Part shown: positions 6,579-55,719 of the stretch, one piece after another
Position numbering within the stretch: position 1 is the first letter of the stretch
Layout of the letters: each line of letters starts with the position of its first letter
Source: Lachnospiraceae bacterium M18-1
Lineage (GTDB): Bacteria > Bacillota > Clostridia > Lachnospirales > Lachnospiraceae
DNA: 64,000 nucleotides
Direction of reading: 5' to 3'
Assembly (NCBI GenBank): GCA_000403295.2
Contig: KE159610.1
Location: 291,387-355,386, forward strand
The notes under the pieces: model-generated
What the model saw: only the letters and a program-made list of their open reading frames with translations
Databases searched by the model: none
Told to the model about the DNA's origin: nothing
Program-made: the position numbers and the translations under genes

Positions 6579-8249
6579 TCACAGTGGTATCTGCCCCCGG
6601 TTCTCCGGCGTTTCTGTTTCCGTGTCCATCACCTTGGAACAGCGTTCCTTTATAAAGTCACTCCACGGCATCATTGCTTCCACGCCTGCGGGCTCTTCCT
6701 TATAGTCCGGCATGTAAAGCAACAGGGTGTAAAGGTATTGGAACACGTTCAGGTGGTTTGCTTTCGCGGTTTCTACCAGGCTATAGATGATGGCACTCGA
6801 TCTCGCGCCGTTTACGGTATCGTGGAAAAGGAAGTTCTTTCTCCCGGTCGCATAGGACTTTGCACATCGTTCCGCCCGGTTATTCGAAATCTCACATCGC
6901 CCATCCAGCAGGTAGTTGCCCAGAAGTTCCCGATGGTTAGACGCATAGTTTACGGCTTTTTCCAACAGGCTGCCGCCCAGCGGCTCTACCGTTGCAAGCC
7001 AGGACCAGAAGCTGTCCCAGACAGGGACTTCCAACTCCAGGCGGCTGGTCTTTCGTTCTTCCGGGGACATCGCTTTTAGTGTCCGCTCTATACGAAAGAG
7101 TTGGTTGCAATAGCAAAGTCCGACCTCTGCTGGAATCCTCTGTTCTTCCTTTGCTTTTTCCGGATCAGCCGCATCTCCCGGGATTTCTTCCGGTGAGTTG
7201 ATGTCCAGCAGTTTTACTCTCTTTCGGCGGGCTGCCGGAATTGCTTCGAAGAAATATCTCCGGCAATGGGCAAGACAGCATACCAGGGTCACATTCTCCA
7301 CGCTGTTGTAGCCGGTATAGCCATCACACTCCAACAGTCCGGAGAACCCTTCCAGGAAATTTTTCGCATATTCACCTGCCCTCCCGGGCTGGTAATCATA
7401 AAGGATGATGGGCGGCTGGCCGTCGTTGCCGGTGAGATATATCCACAGATAAGAGTTTGAGGATGCCGCTTTCCCTTCCTCATGGAGGACCTGGCAGACG
7501 GTCTCATCCGCATGGAGGAGATCCCGTTTGATCAGGTATCCGTGGAGCAGGTTATAAACAGGCTCGAAATAGGCCAGCGCGCATTTGATACACCAGTTTG
7601 AGGTCGTCTCCCTGGCAAGCGGGGCACCCATTTGGAGCCAGTCCATTTCCTGGCGGTAAAAGGGAACCGAGTTCAGGAATTTCTGGTACATGACAAAGGC
7701 TGCCATAGACGGGGAAGCCGGGCTGTGTGCCAGCAGTGCAGTCGGTACCGGCGCCTTGACGATCGTGCCGGTATCTTCCTCACGGCAGACCGGACATGCA
7801 AGGACTTCCTGCATATATCGGATCCGTTCTACCTTTGCGGGCGTAATCCGCAGTTCCTCACGTACAAACTGCCATCCGATGGTCTCCATCGCAGCGTCAC
7901 AATCCGGACAAAGCCTCTGGTCTTGCGGCATCGCACAGTGTACTTCCCTGACCGGCAGGTTTTTGTAGAGATCTTCCCGCTTGGCTTTTGGTTTCCGGCG
8001 GGTATGGCTGCGGACAGTGGATTTCTCCGTCGGCTCTTCCTGCCCTGCTTCCTCCTGGGCAGCCCTGCCGGCGGTCCTTTCCCTGGAAGTGCCGAAAAAT
8101 TTCCTCTGGAATTCCGCAATGGTTTCATTCAGGTTCGCAACCGTAGCGTTTAGTTCCTGGATGGTTTTTTGGAGCTCCTGGATCTGTGCATTCTTTTGTT
8201 CAATTGTTTTTTGCAGGAATTCGATCAAATCGTCTTTATATTCCTCCAC
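6579..8249 (-). CDS. tnpC: IS66 transposase TnpC (DDE)
   Basis: 556-residue IS66 transposase, full length for the family. Residues 5-50 form a leucine-rich coiled coil. A zinc-finger region with CPDCDAAME and CPVCREED follows. The catalytic core includes DLLHADETVCQ (first Asp), ECDGYTGYN (second Asp) and NNRAERCAKSYATGRKNFLF (the Glu region). Immediately before the catalytic core is the usual APLARETTSNWC segment. It is separated from tnpB by a 296-bp gap, which is larger than usual for IS66. Confidence 0.92.
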   Translation of the reverse strand: MEEYKDDLIEFLQKTIEQKNAQIQELQKTIQELNATVANLNETIAEFQRKFFGTSRERTAGRAAQEEAGQEEPTEKSTVRSHTRRKPKAKREDLYKNLPVREVHCAMPQDQRLCPDCDAAMETIGWQFVREELRITPAKVERIRYMQEVLACPVCREEDTGTIVKAPVPTALLAHSPASPSMAAFVMYQKFLNSVPFYRQEMDWLQMGAPLARETTSNWCIKCALAYFEPVYNLLHGYLIKRDLLHADETVCQVLHEEGKAASSNSYLWIYLTGNDGQPPIILYDYQPGRAGEYAKNFLEGFSGLLECDGYTGYNSVENVTLVCCLAHCRRYFFEAIPAARRKRVKLLDINSPEEIPGDAADPEKAKEEQRIPAEVGLCYCNQLFRIERTLKAMSPEERKTSRLELEVPVWDSFWSWLATVEPLGGSLLEKAVNYASNHRELLGNYLLDGRCEISNNRAERCAKSYATGRKNFLFHDTVNGARSSAIIYSLVETAKANHLNVFQYLYTLLLYMPDYKEEPAGVEAMMPWSDFIKERCSKVMDTETETPENRGQIPL

Positions 8250-15428: not shown

Positions 15429-15457
15429 CCTAACCCGGATAAACCGGAAAAGTTTTT

Positions 15458-15504
15458 TTGCATTTCCTCCAAATTTCAAGTACAATAAAGAAAAATATTG
15501 GAGG
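15458..15504 (+). promoter_or_regulatory. Element promoter and ribosome-site-masking inverted repeat
   Basis: TTGCAT (15458-15463), a 17-base spacer and TACAAT (15481-15486) form a promoter inside the element. CCTCCAA (15466-15472) is the exact complement of TTGGAGG (15498-15504), which contains the ribosome binding site. A transcript from the internal promoter starts after the first arm and stays translatable. A transcript entering from outside would contain both arms and could fold to hide the site. Confidence 0.65.
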
Positions 15505-15512
15505 ATGTGTTC

Positions 15513-17015
15513 ATGTTACTTACGGATAAATATGCTGACAAAATGAATGGTATCATCACTTGCTATGACCGTATGATCATCCAGGGCTATATCCCCGGAT
15601 GGAGTTATGCGGAAGGTATGACCAGCTATTTAAAAGCCAACAACATCCGTATTTTTGATTTTTCGACTTTCTCCCAGCCCCTTACGGAACAGGTTCGTGT
15701 AAATGCCCAGCGCATTGCAGATGAAAACGGCATCCAGATTGAGTTCATCCGGAAACTCCGGGCGTTCCGAAAAGATGACCGCATCCAGGAGATCATTCAG
15801 AAAACCGGTAAGTCTGAGGGGCTGATTCATATCTTTTCTGCCATGGAACAATGCAATACTTATAAGCCATGGCATGATAAAACAACCGGAAAAACATTCC
15901 TTAAGTTTGACCAAAGCAAATGTCTCCATTATTATTTTTATTTTATAGATAAAGAACTCGGCTTGTGTTATCTCCGGGTTCCCACCTGGGCTCCCTTCCG
16001 ACTGCAGTTCTACATGAACGGTCATAATCTTCTGGCCCATAAGCTGCAAAAGAAAGGGATCACTTACCGTATGCATGATAACGCCTTCCTTGAAATCTCA
16101 GATGTCGAAACTGCCCAGAAACTATCTGACAGAATCAACCCGGAAGGTCTCCATAAAATCCTGGATGTATTTGCAAAACGCTACTGTCCCATTGCGGAAT
16201 CGCTCGGTCTCGGCTACACTTGGACAGTCCAACAGATTGAGTGTGCAACCGATATCATGTTCAAACAGGCCTGTGACCTGGAGCCCCTTTATGATGAGAT
16301 CATCCGGACGGCAATCTTTACGGTAAAGCCGGATAACATCGCTGCATTCCTGGGACAGCGCATTACCTATAACTGTAAGAAAGAAGTCGGTACAAACTAT
16401 AACCAGCGTATTCTCGGTACGAGAATCAAACACCATATGGGTGATGTATCAATTAAAATGTATGATAAATTTGGCTGTGTCTTACGGATAGAAAGTACTT
16501 GCAATGACATCGGGACTTTTCGTGTAAAACGGAAAGTGGAACACAGGGACGGCAGTTCCACAGAACAAAAAGCGCCTTTGAAAAAAAGTATTTATAGCCT
16601 GTATCAGTTATTCACAATCATGAAAGCCGCCAACTACCGGTATCTGGAATTCGTATCATCCTTTGATGACCACAGCGGCGGAAAGAAGAATCTTACAAAA
16701 GCAACAGAGGCTGTTAAGGAGAAAGGCCGTTCCTACCGTGGGCTGAACTTCTTTTCCCCAAAAGATCTGTTGGTACTGGAAGTGATCAGCCGGGGCGAAT
16801 ACATGACTTTTGGAATGCAGGGAAAGGATATCCGCCGCCAGCTGGAGGATATCAGTCCGTCTGCCATGTCGAGAATTTTTAAGCGGCTCCGTCTCCATGG
16901 GATTATTGAACGGGTTCAAGGAACTTATAAGTATTTTACAACAGCTTACGGCAAAGAGGTCATTGCGGCAGGATTAACCGTTAGAAACCTTGTGCTTATA
17001 CCAGCATTGGCATAA
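15513..17015 (+). CDS. Putative transposase of the 1648-bp element (winged-helix C-terminus)
   Basis: 500 residues from the ATG at 15513, eight bases after GGAGG. I recognise this as a widespread but poorly named family often labelled MarR-like because of its C-terminal winged helix (about residues 440-480: SPSAMSRIFKRLRLHGIIER). The centre holds a conserved block, IKHHMGDVSIKMYDKFG then VLRIESTCND, whose YDK...LRIE pattern recalls replication-initiator or relaxase-like proteins. I cannot identify catalytic residues with certainty. The identical second copy at 52014-53516 and the precise element borders argue that it is the mobility protein. Confidence 0.7.
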   Translation: MLLTDKYADKMNGIITCYDRMIIQGYIPGWSYAEGMTSYLKANNIRIFDFSTFSQPLTEQVRVNAQRIADENGIQIEFIRKLRAFRKDDRIQEIIQKTGKSEGLIHIFSAMEQCNTYKPWHDKTTGKTFLKFDQSKCLHYYFYFIDKELGLCYLRVPTWAPFRLQFYMNGHNLLAHKLQKKGITYRMHDNAFLEISDVETAQKLSDRINPEGLHKILDVFAKRYCPIAESLGLGYTWTVQQIECATDIMFKQACDLEPLYDEIIRTAIFTVKPDNIAAFLGQRITYNCKKEVGTNYNQRILGTRIKHHMGDVSIKMYDKFGCVLRIESTCNDIGTFRVKRKVEHRDGSSTEQKAPLKKSIYSLYQLFTIMKAANYRYLEFVSSFDDHSGGKKNLTKATEAVKEKGRSYRGLNFFSPKDLLVLEVISRGEYMTFGMQGKDIRRQLEDISPSAMSRIFKRLRLHGIIERVQGTYKYFTTAYGKEVIAAGLTVRNLVLIPALA

Positions 17016-17076
17016 GTGTTTTTCTTATGCAGAAATTTTGCCATTTTGCGTCAAAAAATATTTATAAGTGGCCTAA

Positions 17077-51053: not shown

Positions 51054-51952
51054 TTTATCAAAGAAGAGTGAAAAAGAAAGTATTATATTGGAGAATGTAC
51101 AAAGATAGCTGGAGCATTAGAGATTGATTCCTATATACTTTTTATGGCTAGTGTGAGTTCTGATGGGAGGGGGATAGAATGAACCGTAGTAATTATTTTA
51201 ATTACATAGAAGAAAAACTAAATATACTATCGTATCGTATAAAAAGTAGAGGCAAAATAAATTTACTAGATTTAAATATTTATTCTGAGACATTTTTTGC
51301 TGAGCTTATGAATCGCTTGTTGGGATATGAGTTAGAAAATATTAATGTTATCAAACAAAATACAGAGGGAATAGATTTAGTTGATAATAAAAATAGGGTT
51401 ATTGTTCAAGTCTCAGCTACCTCTTCAAAACAAAAGATTGAAAACTCTTTAGCTAAAAAGATTTTTGAAGATTATTCTGGATTTGGTTTTAAGTTTATTG
51501 CAATTTCAGGAGATGCTGATAAACTAAGGACACAAACATTTGTGAATCCCTACAAAGTTATTTTTTCGCCATCGAACGATATATATGATATTAAATCATT
51601 GTTGAATATTGTTTTGAATATGCAGATTAGTGTTCAACGAGGATTGTATGAATTTTTAAAAGATGAGTTGGGAAGTTTTGTTGACATAGTTAAGGTCGAT
51701 TCTAATTTGGCGTCTATTATTAATATACTATCTCAGGAAGATTTGTCAGGTATAGTTGATTCGCCGGAAATAAATTCATTTGAAATATTAAGAAAAATAG
51801 AATTTAATGATTTATTGACTGTTCAACCTACCATAGATGATTATAAAATTTATTATAGCAGATTAGACGAAAAGTATAAAGAATTTGATAAACAAGGTGC
51901 AAATAAAAGTCTCTCTGTTTTGGCAGTTATTCGAAAACAGTATATTAAATTA

Positions 51953-53600
51953 TTAGGCCACTTATAAATATTTTTTGACGCAAAATGGCAAAATTTCTGC
52001 ATAAGAAAAACACTTATGCCAATGCTGGTATAAGCACAAGGTTTCTAACGGTTAATCCTGCCGCAATGACCTCTTTGCCGTAAGCTGTTGTAAAATACTT
52101 ATAAGTTCCTTGAACCCGTTCAATAATCCCATGGAGACGGAGCCGCTTAAAAATTCTCGACATGGCAGACGGACTGATATCCTCCAGCTGGCGGCGGATA
52201 TCCTTTCCCTGCATTCCAAAAGTCATGTATTCGCCCCGGCTGATCACTTCCAGTACCAACAGATCTTTTGGGGAAAAGAAGTTCAGCCCACGGTAGGAAC
52301 GGCCTTTCTCCTTAACAGCCTCTGTTGCTTTTGTAAGATTCTTCTTTCCGCCGCTGTGGTCATCAAAGGATGATACGAATTCCAGATACCGGTAGTTGGC
52401 GGCTTTCATGATTGTGAATAACTGATACAGGCTATAAATACTTTTTTTCAAAGGCGCTTTTTGTTCTGTGGAACTGCCGTCCCTGTGTTCCACTTTCCGT
52501 TTTACACGAAAAGTCCCGATGTCATTGCAAGTACTTTCTATCCGTAAGACACAGCCAAATTTATCATACATTTTAATTGATACATCACCCATATGGTGTT
52601 TGATTCTCGTACCGAGAATACGCTGGTTATAGTTTGTACCGACTTCTTTCTTACAGTTATAGGTAATGCGCTGTCCCAGGAATGCAGCGATGTTATCCGG
52701 CTTTACCGTAAAGATTGCCGTCCGGATGATCTCATCATAAAGGGGCTCCAGGTCACAGGCCTGTTTGAACATGATATCGGTTGCACACTCAATCTGTTGG
52801 ACTGTCCAAGTGTAGCCGAGACCGAGCGATTCCGCAATGGGACAGTAGCGTTTTGCAAATACATCCAGGATTTTATGGAGACCTTCCGGGTTGATTCTGT
52901 CAGATAGTTTCTGGGCAGTTTCGACATCTGAGATTTCAAGGAAGGCGTTATCATGCATACGGTAAGTGATCCCTTTCTTTTGCAGCTTATGGGCCAGAAG
53001 ATTATGACCGTTCATGTAGAACTGCAGTCGGAAGGGAGCCCAGGTGGGAACCCGGAGATAACACAAGCCGAGTTCTTTATCTATAAAATAAAAATAATAA
53101 TGGAGACATTTGCTTTGGTCAAACTTAAGGAATGTTTTTCCGGTTGTTTTATCATGCCATGGCTTATAAGTATTGCATTGTTCCATGGCAGAAAAGATAT
53201 GAATCAGCCCCTCAGACTTACCGGTTTTCTGAATGATCTCCTGGATGCGGTCATCTTTTCGGAACGCCCGGAGTTTCCGGATGAACTCAATCTGGATGCC
53301 GTTTTCATCTGCAATGCGCTGGGCATTTACACGAACCTGTTCCGTAAGGGGCTGGGAGAAAGTCGAAAAATCAAAAATACGGATGTTGTTGGCTTTTAAA
53401 TAGCTGGTCATACCTTCCGCATAACTCCATCCGGGGATATAGCCCTGGATGATCATACGGTCATAGCAAGTGATGATACCATTCATTTTGTCAGCATATT
53501 TATCCGTAAGTAACATGAACACATCCTCCAATATTTTTCTTTATTGTACTTGAAATTTGGAGGAAATGCAAAAAAACTTTTCCGGTTTATCCGGGTTAGG
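51953..53600 (-). mobile_element. Unclassified 1648-bp insertion element, copy 2
   Basis: Same 1648 bp as 15429-17076 but on the minus strand, with TTAGG (complement CCTAA) at both borders (51953-51957 and 53596-53600). The interrupted gene can be rebuilt exactly by deleting one TTAGG plus the 1638-bp core, which supports a 5-bp duplication of the target. Confidence 0.88.
52014..53516 (-). CDS. Putative transposase, second identical copy
   Basis: 500-residue protein identical to the product of 15513-17015 over its full length, and the antisense frames are the same too, so the DNA is essentially identical. The start, ribosome site and right-end hairpin are shared. It points against the direction of the ABC-3C operon, so it does not obviously drive downstream genes. 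Confidence 0.7.
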   Translation of the reverse strand: MLLTDKYADKMNGIITCYDRMIIQGYIPGWSYAEGMTSYLKANNIRIFDFSTFSQPLTEQVRVNAQRIADENGIQIEFIRKLRAFRKDDRIQEIIQKTGKSEGLIHIFSAMEQCNTYKPWHDKTTGKTFLKFDQSKCLHYYFYFIDKELGLCYLRVPTWAPFRLQFYMNGHNLLAHKLQKKGITYRMHDNAFLEISDVETAQKLSDRINPEGLHKILDVFAKRYCPIAESLGLGYTWTVQQIECATDIMFKQACDLEPLYDEIIRTAIFTVKPDNIAAFLGQRITYNCKKEVGTNYNQRILGTRIKHHMGDVSIKMYDKFGCVLRIESTCNDIGTFRVKRKVEHRDGSSTEQKAPLKKSIYSLYQLFTIMKAANYRYLEFVSSFDDHSGGKKNLTKATEAVKEKGRSYRGLNFFSPKDLLVLEVISRGEYMTFGMQGKDIRRQLEDISPSAMSRIFKRLRLHGIIERVQGTYKYFTTAYGKEVIAAGLTVRNLVLIPALA

Positions 53601-53779
53601 GGAAAATGTAGAACCATATGAGCTGTTTTTTTCCATTATAGACAATTTAATTGAGCTAATAATGAATAGTAAAAATTATGTAGAAATACCTTATGAAGAA
53701 TTGGAAATGTGTGTCTCTATTTTGGTTGTGGATGCATTTATTCGTTGTAAGATATTTAAGAATCCGGAGGGATATAATC

Positions 53780-54007
53780 ATGTTATTACCTGACAATATA
53801 CATCCCGAATTAAGTATATATTATAATGGTTCAGTTGTTCTTGGAGAGCTGAGAAAAATGGATAATCAGACAATTATGGATTTGTATCAAAATGTAAAGG
53901 TCAAAAATGAAATGTCTTTTCCAACTTTTATGTTATGTCTTGATTGGTTATATTTAATCGAAGTGGCAAAAATGGATGAAAGGGGGTATATTCAATTATG
54001 TTTATGA
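53780..54007 (+). CDS. ABC-three-component middle component (MC6-like)
   Basis: 75 residues from the ATG at 53780, which follows GGAGGG. Sequence MLLPDNIHPELSIYYNGSVV then FPTFMLCLDWLYLIEVAKMD is the compact winged-helix-like middle component of ABC-3C systems. It overlaps both neighbours, the split SMEK gene before and the ATPase after, so the three were one translational unit. In the family it links the effector to the ATPase. Confidence 0.82.
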   Translation: MLLPDNIHPELSIYYNGSVVLGELRKMDNQTIMDLYQNVKVKNEMSFPTFMLCLDWLYLIEVAKMDERGYIQLCL

Positions 54008-55719
54008 AGAAACTTATAATATCAAGTCCGTCTGAGATTATTCGAGAAATAGACTTTTGTTCTGGACTAAATCTAATTATTGATGATACCCCGGTTGAAG
54101 ATACTAAATCAACTGGAAATAATGTTGGAAAAACAACGGTCTTAAAATTGGTCGATTTTTGCTTGGGGGCGAAAGGGAGTATAATTTATACAGATACAGA
54201 AAATAAAAAAGAAACTTATGATGTTGTAAAAAATTTTTTGGTTGATGAAGAAATAGAAATCAAACTTATTTTAACTGAAAACTTAAATGATCCAAATGCA
54301 AAACAATTAGAAATTCAGAGGAATTTTTTGCAGCGAAAAAAGGCTGTTAGAAAAATTAATGGAAAAGCCATTCTTGACAAAGATTTTGAAGATGAACTGG
54401 AAAAAAATATAATGCCAGATAAAGATGCCGAAAAACCTACTTTTAGACAGATCATATCTCATAATATTCGTTATAAGGATGACAGTATAAATAATACTCT
54501 AAAAACATTGGATAAATTTACTTCAGATGTAGAATACGAAACATTATACTTATATTTACTAGGATGTTCTTTTAATGAAGGAGCAAAAAAACAAGCATTG
54601 GTCACTAAAATCAATCAAGAAAAAACATTTAGAGAGCGATTGGAGAAAAAACAGACAAAAACGACCTATGAAATAGCATTAGATTTGGTTGATGATGAAA
54701 TTAATGCTCTTAATGGAAAAAAAGCGTCTTTTAATTTAAATGAAACATTAGAAGAAGATTTGGAGCAACTTAATATTGTTAAATATAATATTAACAGAAC
54801 AAGTGCATTAATTAGTAAATTTGAAATTCGTAAGAATTTGATAGAAGAATCTCGGAGAGATTTAGAACAAAGTATTTCGCATATTGATTTGCAACAATTA
54901 AGATTACTATATGAAGAAGCTGCTGAGAACATTTCTGGTATTCAGAAAACATTTGAGGATTTAGTTGCATTTCATAATAATATGGTGATAGAAAAAGTAA
55001 AGTATATTTCTCAGGATTTGCCTGAATTAATACAGAAGTTGAAAGATTCACAAGAGGAATTATCTTTACTATTAAGGCAAGAAAAAGAATTGACAGACAA
55101 AGTTGCTAAAGGAGACTCTTTTGAAGAATTAGAGAAAATAATTTTTGAATTGAATGAAAAGTATAGACTAAAAGGTGAGTATGAAAGCATAATTTCTCAG
55201 ATAAATGAAGTTGAAGAAAATATAGATACACTTAATGAGCAAATTGGAAACATAGATCATTATCTTTTTTCAGGAGATTTTGAAATTCTGTTAAAAGAAC
55301 AGGTTAAAAAATTTAATAAAATATTTTCTAATATTTCACAAGAATTGTATGGCGAAAAATATGCGCTTACGTTTAAAAAAGAAATAAATAAAAAAGAGCA
55401 ACAATTTTATAAATTTAATGCCTTTAATGCCAATATGAGTTCTGGTAAGAAACAGGGGGAAATTTTATGTTTTGATTTGGCATATTTATTGTTTGCTGAT
55501 GAAGAACAACTTCCTTGTTTGCATTTTTTGCTTAATGATAAGAAAGAACTTATGCATGATAATCAATTAATTAAGGTTGCAGAATTTGTACAAAATGAAA
55601 ATATTCAGTTAGTAATTTCTATATTAAAGGATAAATTACCAGTGGCTGTATTGGACAAAGCACATATTGCAGTAGAACTTTCCCAACAAGAAAAATTGTT
55701 TAGAATTGAAAATAGATAG
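53998..55719 (+). CDS. ABC-three-component ATPase (Rad50-like, DUF2326)
   Basis: 573 residues. Walker A GNNVGKTTVLKLVDF at about 41-55, long coiled coils (about 205-420, e.g. RRDLEQSISHIDLQQLRLLY), then the C-terminal half of the ATPase with NANMSSGKKQGEILCFDLAY (signature region) and LPCLHFLLNDK (Walker B region). DUF2326 ATPases power ABC-3C conflict systems, which are thought to detect foreign nucleic acid and activate a linked effector. The gene is AT-rich compared with neighbours, suggesting transfer. Confidence 0.88.
   Translation: MFMKKLIISSPSEIIREIDFCSGLNLIIDDTPVEDTKSTGNNVGKTTVLKLVDFCLGAKGSIIYTDTENKKETYDVVKNFLVDEEIEIKLILTENLNDPNAKQLEIQRNFLQRKKAVRKINGKAILDKDFEDELEKNIMPDKDAEKPTFRQIISHNIRYKDDSINNTLKTLDKFTSDVEYETLYLYLLGCSFNEGAKKQALVTKINQEKTFRERLEKKQTKTTYEIALDLVDDEINALNGKKASFNLNETLEEDLEQLNIVKYNINRTSALISKFEIRKNLIEESRRDLEQSISHIDLQQLRLLYEEAAENISGIQKTFEDLVAFHNNMVIEKVKYISQDLPELIQKLKDSQEELSLLLRQEKELTDKVAKGDSFEELEKIIFELNEKYRLKGEYESIISQINEVEENIDTLNEQIGNIDHYLFSGDFEILLKEQVKKFNKIFSNISQELYGEKYALTFKKEINKKEQQFYKFNAFNANMSSGKKQGEILCFDLAYLLFADEEQLPCLHFLLNDKKELMHDNQLIKVAEFVQNENIQLVISILKDKLPVAVLDKAHIAVELSQQEKLFRIENR

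Follow-up and report, generated by a model that had tools for sequence, protein, structure and literature searches.

What kind of element is the 1648-bp sequence which occurs twice in a 64,000-nt stretch of Lachnospiraceae bacterium M18-1 (contig KE159610.1), and what sort of enzyme moves it? The whole stretch is referred to as the window, and coordinates are positions within it, copy A lying on the plus strand and copy B on the minus strand. The best reading of the results is that the sequence would belong to an unrecognised family of insertion sequences (IS) whose tyrosine transposase, with predicted catalysis, resembles Rep_trans proteins rather than HUH enzymes. It is a real insertion sequence, and the evidence for its mobility is strong; that it is autonomous, and that its single protein is a single-strand tyrosine-type endonuclease with a Rep_trans (TBP-like) fold and a C-terminal winged helix, is given a probability of roughly 0.73.

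The original prediction, made from the sequence alone, described two 1648-bp copies with exact borders, encoding the same 500-residue protein. Copies A (15429-17076, plus) and B (51953-53600, minus) are indeed identical throughout, with no base differing over 1648 bp, and their flanks are unrelated; longer shared flanks, which had been named beforehand as refuting a mobile element, were not seen where close sites were compared. Unrelated flanks and independent genomes rule out a chance repeat or an assembly duplicate. The first five bases, CCTAA, are probably host target, and the element proper probably covers 15434-17076. Its sole long gene, within ~1.65 kb, encodes 500 aa from an ATG at 15513, with GGAGG upstream. 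The features of the two copies are as follows.

15429..15433, plus strand: target pentanucleotide CCTAA bordering copy A on the left, probably host DNA (from the empty site of the related copy L024 and 20/20 tabulated close sites with CCTAA)
15434..17076, plus strand: element proper, copy A, CCCGG...GGCCTAA (copy comparison, empty site, close-site table)
15435..15447, plus strand: left-end hairpin CCGG-N5-CCGG adjoining the border (pattern in 48/50 loci)
15500..15504, plus strand: ribosome-binding-like GGAGG (sequence inspection)
15513..17015, plus strand: transposase gene, 500 aa
15513..16577, plus strand: residues 1-355, predicted TBP/Rep_trans-like catalytic region with D19, E243, Y317 and E327 (model, fold matches, conservation)
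16461..16463, plus strand: codon of Y317, proposed nucleophile in KxYxK (99/99 rows; model strand 312-319)
16755..16982, plus strand: residues 415-490, C-terminal winged helix (weak profile matches and fold matches)
17065..17076, plus strand: right-end motif TAAGTGGCCTAA (pattern in 45/50 loci)
51953..53595, minus strand: element proper, copy B (copy comparison)
52014..53516, minus strand: transposase gene, copy B
53596..53600, minus strand: target CCTAA, copy B (copy comparison and join test)

Dispersed copies are found well beyond the window. In three genomes they occupy different sites: all six full-length copies of Dorea sp. 5-2 are identical, Anaerolineales H5_CFX5 carries seven full-length copies, of which the five compared are identical, and the five full-length copies of Lachnospiraceae A4 are all at least 99.1% identical. 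The exact empty site of the Dorea copy L024 was recovered from a relative, G451 (L102), where 245 bp match at 100% identity and CCTAA occurs once; for L023, an orthologous empty site of 81% identity (L132) reads CCCAA once. Such searches relied on joined sites, of which six of the seven built were used in the first round (the seventh, L024, separately) and four of the nine built in the second, with the A4 and ASF492 sites left out. No empty site was found for copies A, B, L019, L020 and L021 in five genomes, nor, copies A and B aside, in 47 genomes; G001 has the left flank of copy A in common and differs in the intervening region, and a 70% match to the joined site of L045 was not informative. 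With identical dispersed copies, one exact empty site and ends conserved across phyla, the predicted mobile element is borne out.

The number of target copies needed to keep a host frame open was assessed at 25 sites, of which eight were clear, five of them (L024, L045, L030, L031, L034) retaining the frame with one target copy. At copy B and L081 the longest frame was likewise obtained with one copy, below the threshold for a clear case. Copy B lies within a SMEK-CTD10 gene, part of a system of the ABC-three-component type, and joining its flanks with one CCTAA gives an open frame of 323 aa, in comparison to 264 with none and 260 with two. The SMEK-CTD10 gene is followed by a DUF2326 gene matching the PADLOC models PDC-M68B and LmuB (51179-55716 overall), and the two probably form a defence system interrupted by copy B.

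51179..51952, plus strand: SMEK-CTD10 (ABC-3C type) gene, 5' part, interrupted by copy B (SMEK_N; CTD10 profile positions 1-84)
53601..53793, plus strand: SMEK-CTD10 gene, 3' part (CTD10 profile positions 93-134; frame kept with one target copy only, three joins tried)

The ends were compared in 50 full-length loci, chosen from the 80 stretches of GTDB representatives described below plus one plasmid locus; further copies per genome were left out, as were truncated, interrupted and edge copies and the divergent L100 and L101, which are without both patterns. The left-end hairpin pattern is present in 48 of these loci and the right-end pattern in 45. The left end reads (C)CTAA-(C/G)-CCGG-N5-CCGG-AACCAAACAGG, the AACCAAACAGG part being absent in Lachnospiraceae; at the right end, Lachnospiraceae have a TAAGNNGCCTAA-like sequence and the other loci a GTAAGNGACTAA-like one. 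No inverted repeats were seen at the element ends, in line with the predicted lack of long ones. The outer pair of the left hairpin occurs as C-G, G-C and T-A, with both sides changed in 4 of 34 rows, these rows having been selected for pairing (34 of 42 hairpin-selected loci were used), and the covariation score of the hairpin was reached by none of 500 shuffles. In L083, which together with L039 was left out of the 42-locus set for want of a perfect hairpin, the outer pair is broken.

The five bases at the left border of the 42 loci are CCTAA in 37, CCCAA in three, and ACTAA and CCTGA in one each. CCTAA stands at both left and right in all 20 tabulated close sites, a table which leaves out L022, whose right flank is unsequenced, and the close loci L036, L039, L041, L043 and L085; among the latter, L039 is without the left pattern, L041 without a right-end match, and L085 ends in GGCTTAA. 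A motif on both sides, present once in the empty site, is also what would be expected from double-strand cut-and-paste transposition with a strict CTA(A) target and a 3-5 bp duplication, the CTAA on each side being target DNA. The CATA found on both sides at 4/4 sites of a second subfamily and the frame at L079, which favours two copies, agree with such a duplication. However, of the five loci whose left site is a variant, four have a right end that does not match it (CCCAA against GACTAA in L067, L071 and L093; CCTGA against GATTAA in L075), the fifth, L064 (ACTAA left, GACTAA right), fitting either reading, and the seven H5_CFX5 sites seen all read GCACTA on the right, the base after it being free, as opposed to CCTAA on the left. 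For these reasons the motif on the left appears to be target DNA and the one on the right to belong to the element, which is what a one-strand nickase would give. Neither inverted repeats nor a match to a DDE transposase family were found, and a single-strand endonuclease fold is predicted; cut-and-paste is thus considered unlikely. One-strand nicking is suggested by the ends, since they lack inverted repeats, share the CTA(A) motif between the two borders and have the left hairpin beside the border.

A similar arrangement recurs in more divergent relatives. In the second subfamily, from Lachnospiraceae A4 (~35% identity), both borders carry CATA. Next to the left border, whose position is inexact because paired copies match a few bases past CATA, lies the hairpin GCAGCC-(TAC or AAT)-GGCTGC. 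In the third, from H5_CFX5 (~24%), CTA occupies both borders at 3/3 sites and the hairpin is TTTGCTGAG/CTCAGCAAA. The Rhodococcus subfamily has CTA on the left before GGGGC-TGC-GCCCC, the shared letters reaching further out, and CTAG on the right, followed by none, one or two extra 8-bp units. From these three comparisons it appears that border motif and hairpin letters vary between subfamilies while the layout is constant. The counterparts of D19, E243, Y317 and E327 are kept in the divergent subfamilies.

The extra units of the Rhodococcus copies, zero to two in number, read CTACCTAG; in L056 (~7555-7630, after the gene) tandem 8-bp units, GTACCTAA, all containing the target motif, come after the right end. 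Such units possibly derive from repeated nicking or slippage at that end. In L084 (9227 to about 9500), a left end and right-end-like sequence without a transposase gene resemble a non-autonomous derivative.

Protein searches returned at least 7961 of 7998 scored candidate clusters passing E 1e-3 when started from the window protein, at least 8000 of 8000 from a Rhodococcus relative (~23% identity), and at least 7998 of 7998 from an alignment of mixed relatives; the three lists may overlap. Among GTDB representatives, 162 stretches match the search patterns, 141 encode a relative and 80 were kept. By their titles, these belong to Lachnospiraceae and other Bacillota, Nitrospirota, Deltaproteobacteria, Beta- and Gammaproteobacteria, Planctomycetota and Actinomycetota, as well as to Acidobacteria, Bacteroidetes, Ignavibacteriae, Chloroflexota and Armatimonadetes, with one archaeal metagenome-assembled genome (L088) in which the reading frame is interrupted. 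In a sample from the phylum of the nearest genome, 10 of 299 genomes gave a match, several being fragments. No match to the element was obtained in phage records or in E. coli; viral contigs yielded 0/36 and 1/31 pattern stretches, the single one being an edge fragment, and plasmids gave no near match to the element DNA and 11 records in the protein search. In several clusters (P0010, P0011, P0018, P0022, P0031 and others) the longest contig is ~1640-1650 bases, i.e. the length of the element, and could represent a collapsed repeat or a free circle.

Copies in three genomes (L045, L047 and L048) share one break point, at element base 1024-1025 near codon 314. The insert of L048 (6941-10438) contains, in our reading, three consecutive tyrosine-recombinase-like genes and resembles a recombinase-in-trio element, and the gap of L045 is unsequenced. 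A group II intron was rejected as the cause of the common break, with no Rfam match and with the three recombinase-like genes in the L048 insert.

The family is common yet mostly unnamed, and it is therefore missed by genome annotation. Among the rows listed with a name, the source names are hypothetical protein or MarR/ArsR regulator. It is conceivable that the element belongs to a catalogued IS family, e.g. an ISNCY entry of ISfinder, which is lacking from protein libraries. This was judged slightly less probable even than cut-and-paste, as no transposase model stands among the Pfam/NCBIfam matches listed, the source names point elsewhere, and no IS with such an enzyme is named among the papers listed by the literature searches, ISfinder and preprints lying outside them.

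Sequence searches of the 500-aa protein against profile libraries and the PDB gave nothing convincing beyond a C-terminal winged helix; in the PDB, the single protein returned chance rows and the profile winged helices or chance rows. The predicted winged-helix C-terminus is supported by weak profile matches and fold matches over residues 415-490. A first AlphaFold2 model, built from close relatives, was poor (pLDDT 66), and its 50 best fold-search rows contained the winged helix only. The model used has a pLDDT of 89, and its best Foldseek match in the PDB is RepSTK1, a Rep_trans (pT181-type) rolling-circle initiator. A Rep- or relaxase-like fold had been suspected from the outset, and the model agrees with this, the kind being Rep_trans (TBP-like) rather than HUH; the catalytic region is predicted to have a TBP-like two-lobed beta fold.

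According to PMC4797284, the Rep_trans site comprises D46, D142 in RxDxAxD, Y191 in R189-x-Y-x-K193 and R212-x-E214, with metal ligands on separate strands; as described in PMC6499999, changing the equivalent residues of the relaxase RelSt3 abolishes nicking. In our model, the counterparts of the metal ligands, D19, E243 and E327, lie on separate strands (11-26, the first of the chain, 236-250 and 323-330). E243 replaces D at Rep_trans motif I, within Q241-x-E243-x-(A/S) on the first strand of the second lobe, K315-x-Y317-x-K319 lies on strand 312-319, and R325-x-E327 on strand 323-330. YxK is present in 99/99 and RxE in 98/99 rows of the relatives' alignment. Along the chain, each on its own strand, the invariant residues D19, E243, Y317 and E327 follow the order of the Rep_trans active site.

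The absence of inverted repeats and of a clear duplication, the short target and the left-end hairpin would also suit a single-strand transposase of the HUH (Y1/Y2) kind, akin to those of IS200/IS605 or IS91. Such an enzyme is very improbable, since no HUH family is among the profile matches listed, the proposed tyrosine is modelled on a beta strand and not on a helix, and the nearest solved fold is Rep_trans. Neither an HUH profile nor PF25227 was matched by the window protein or five relatives, and neither is among the matches listed for 41 relatives (25 of 42 families); no HUH row was recognised among the 50 best rows in each of two fold searches. That the protein is a regulator or passenger moved by another enzyme, as its winged helix and the occasional MarR/ArsR annotation might hint, is hardly credible for the sole long gene of a 1.65-kb element, a gene that lies between conserved ends in loci from many phyla.

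Under the Rep_trans-like reading, the element seems to move by single-strand nicking after CTA(A) through the putative nucleophile Y317. The winged helix would bind the element ends as duplex DNA, and the catalytic region, probably as a dimer, would hold a metal by D19, E243 and E327. Y317 would then make one nick in the gene-sense strand directly after the CTA(A) of the left border, next to the hairpin, and a second after CTA(A) at the right end. Joining of the left flank to the right flank would restore the target, while the single strand, freed by excision or rolling-circle displacement, may be ligated behind a new CTA(A), whereupon the host would copy it. Since the right end brings a nick motif of its own, a target duplication would not be required.

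Several results weigh against this reading. Whole-chain TM-scores to 4cij are low (query 0.18, target 0.31; rmsd 14), and 4cij is absent among the 50 VIA rows of fold matches listed. PF02486 was matched neither by the window protein (E up to 10) nor by five relatives (E up to 1), and it is not among the matches listed (25 of 42 families) for 41 relatives; hhalign returned probabilities of 0.2 of 100 with MobT and 0.1 of 100 with one Rep-Arvir protein. The later E of motif III, YxKxxE, is not kept, and motif II, T/SxY/ExG, has a mere resemblance at R299..G302, G302 being present in 79/99 rows. In the left hairpin there is a single covarying pair, a number reached by 120/500 shuffles. A general right-end hairpin is not supported, and a replication-strand bias is not clear (13 versus 7 of 20 Lachnospiraceae sites). 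Lastly, three clear sites of the frame test depart from one target copy, with none at L029 and L040 and two at L079, where a 4-nt motif was counted; in our reading, L029 has a stop codon on one side and a start codon on the other, and at L040 the frame is one-sided.

To our knowledge, rolling-circle-type transposition is known from HUH enzymes only. The review PMC5714925 names IS91 and Helitrons for this type of transposition. We lean, less firmly than towards the Rep_trans-like reading of this element, towards the existence of a further transposase class beside the DDE, serine, tyrosine-recombinase, HUH and reverse-transcriptase ones: Rep_trans/TBP-fold tyrosine endonucleases moving ISs via single strands, in many phyla and thousands of clusters. 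This class would have been overlooked because its members are filed as hypothetical proteins or MarR-type regulators. If true, a second, unrelated rolling-circle endonuclease fold also gave rise to insertion sequences, and the family would provide enzymes that each use a short target set by their subfamily (CTAA, CTA or CATA), the choice of which is directly testable.

Among known systems, IS200/IS605 elements (Y1 HUH) have no inverted repeats, a short fixed target beside the left end, a left hairpin and probably no duplication, and the element shares all of these end features. It differs from them in its ~500-aa protein with another fold and other metal ligands, in the lack of a general right-end hairpin and in a nick motif which is alike at both ends. 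IS91/ISCR and Helitrons (Y2 HUH) resemble it in rolling-circle-type logic and in the absence of inverted repeats (in part from PMC5714925), whereas they have an HUH fold and two tyrosines, in contrast to the single candidate tyrosine and the absence of a helicase here. Rep-Arvir proteins (PF25227/DUF7845, RepSNJ2) are described in PMC13107129 as having a TBP-like catalytic domain, which contains a single tyrosine, and after it a MarR-like winged helix, and as tied to Rep_trans by structure and not by sequence. A similar architecture is predicted for the element's protein; unlike it, which has neither a PF25227 nor an hhalign match, Rep-Arvir proteins are replication initiators of archaeal viruses and plasmids. 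The Rep_trans initiators and MOBT relaxases (PF02486; RepDE, RepSTK1, RelSt3) provide the best solved fold match, the same order of metal-binding D, D/E and E, YxK with a basic residue two positions before and RxE, and nick sites beside or in a hairpin in their origins. The element's protein differs from them in having no profile match and in not clearly keeping motif II and the final E of YxKxxE, and its gene sits in a short, genome-mobile element with its own ends. The family may link Rep_trans, MOBT, Rep-Arvir and transposition.
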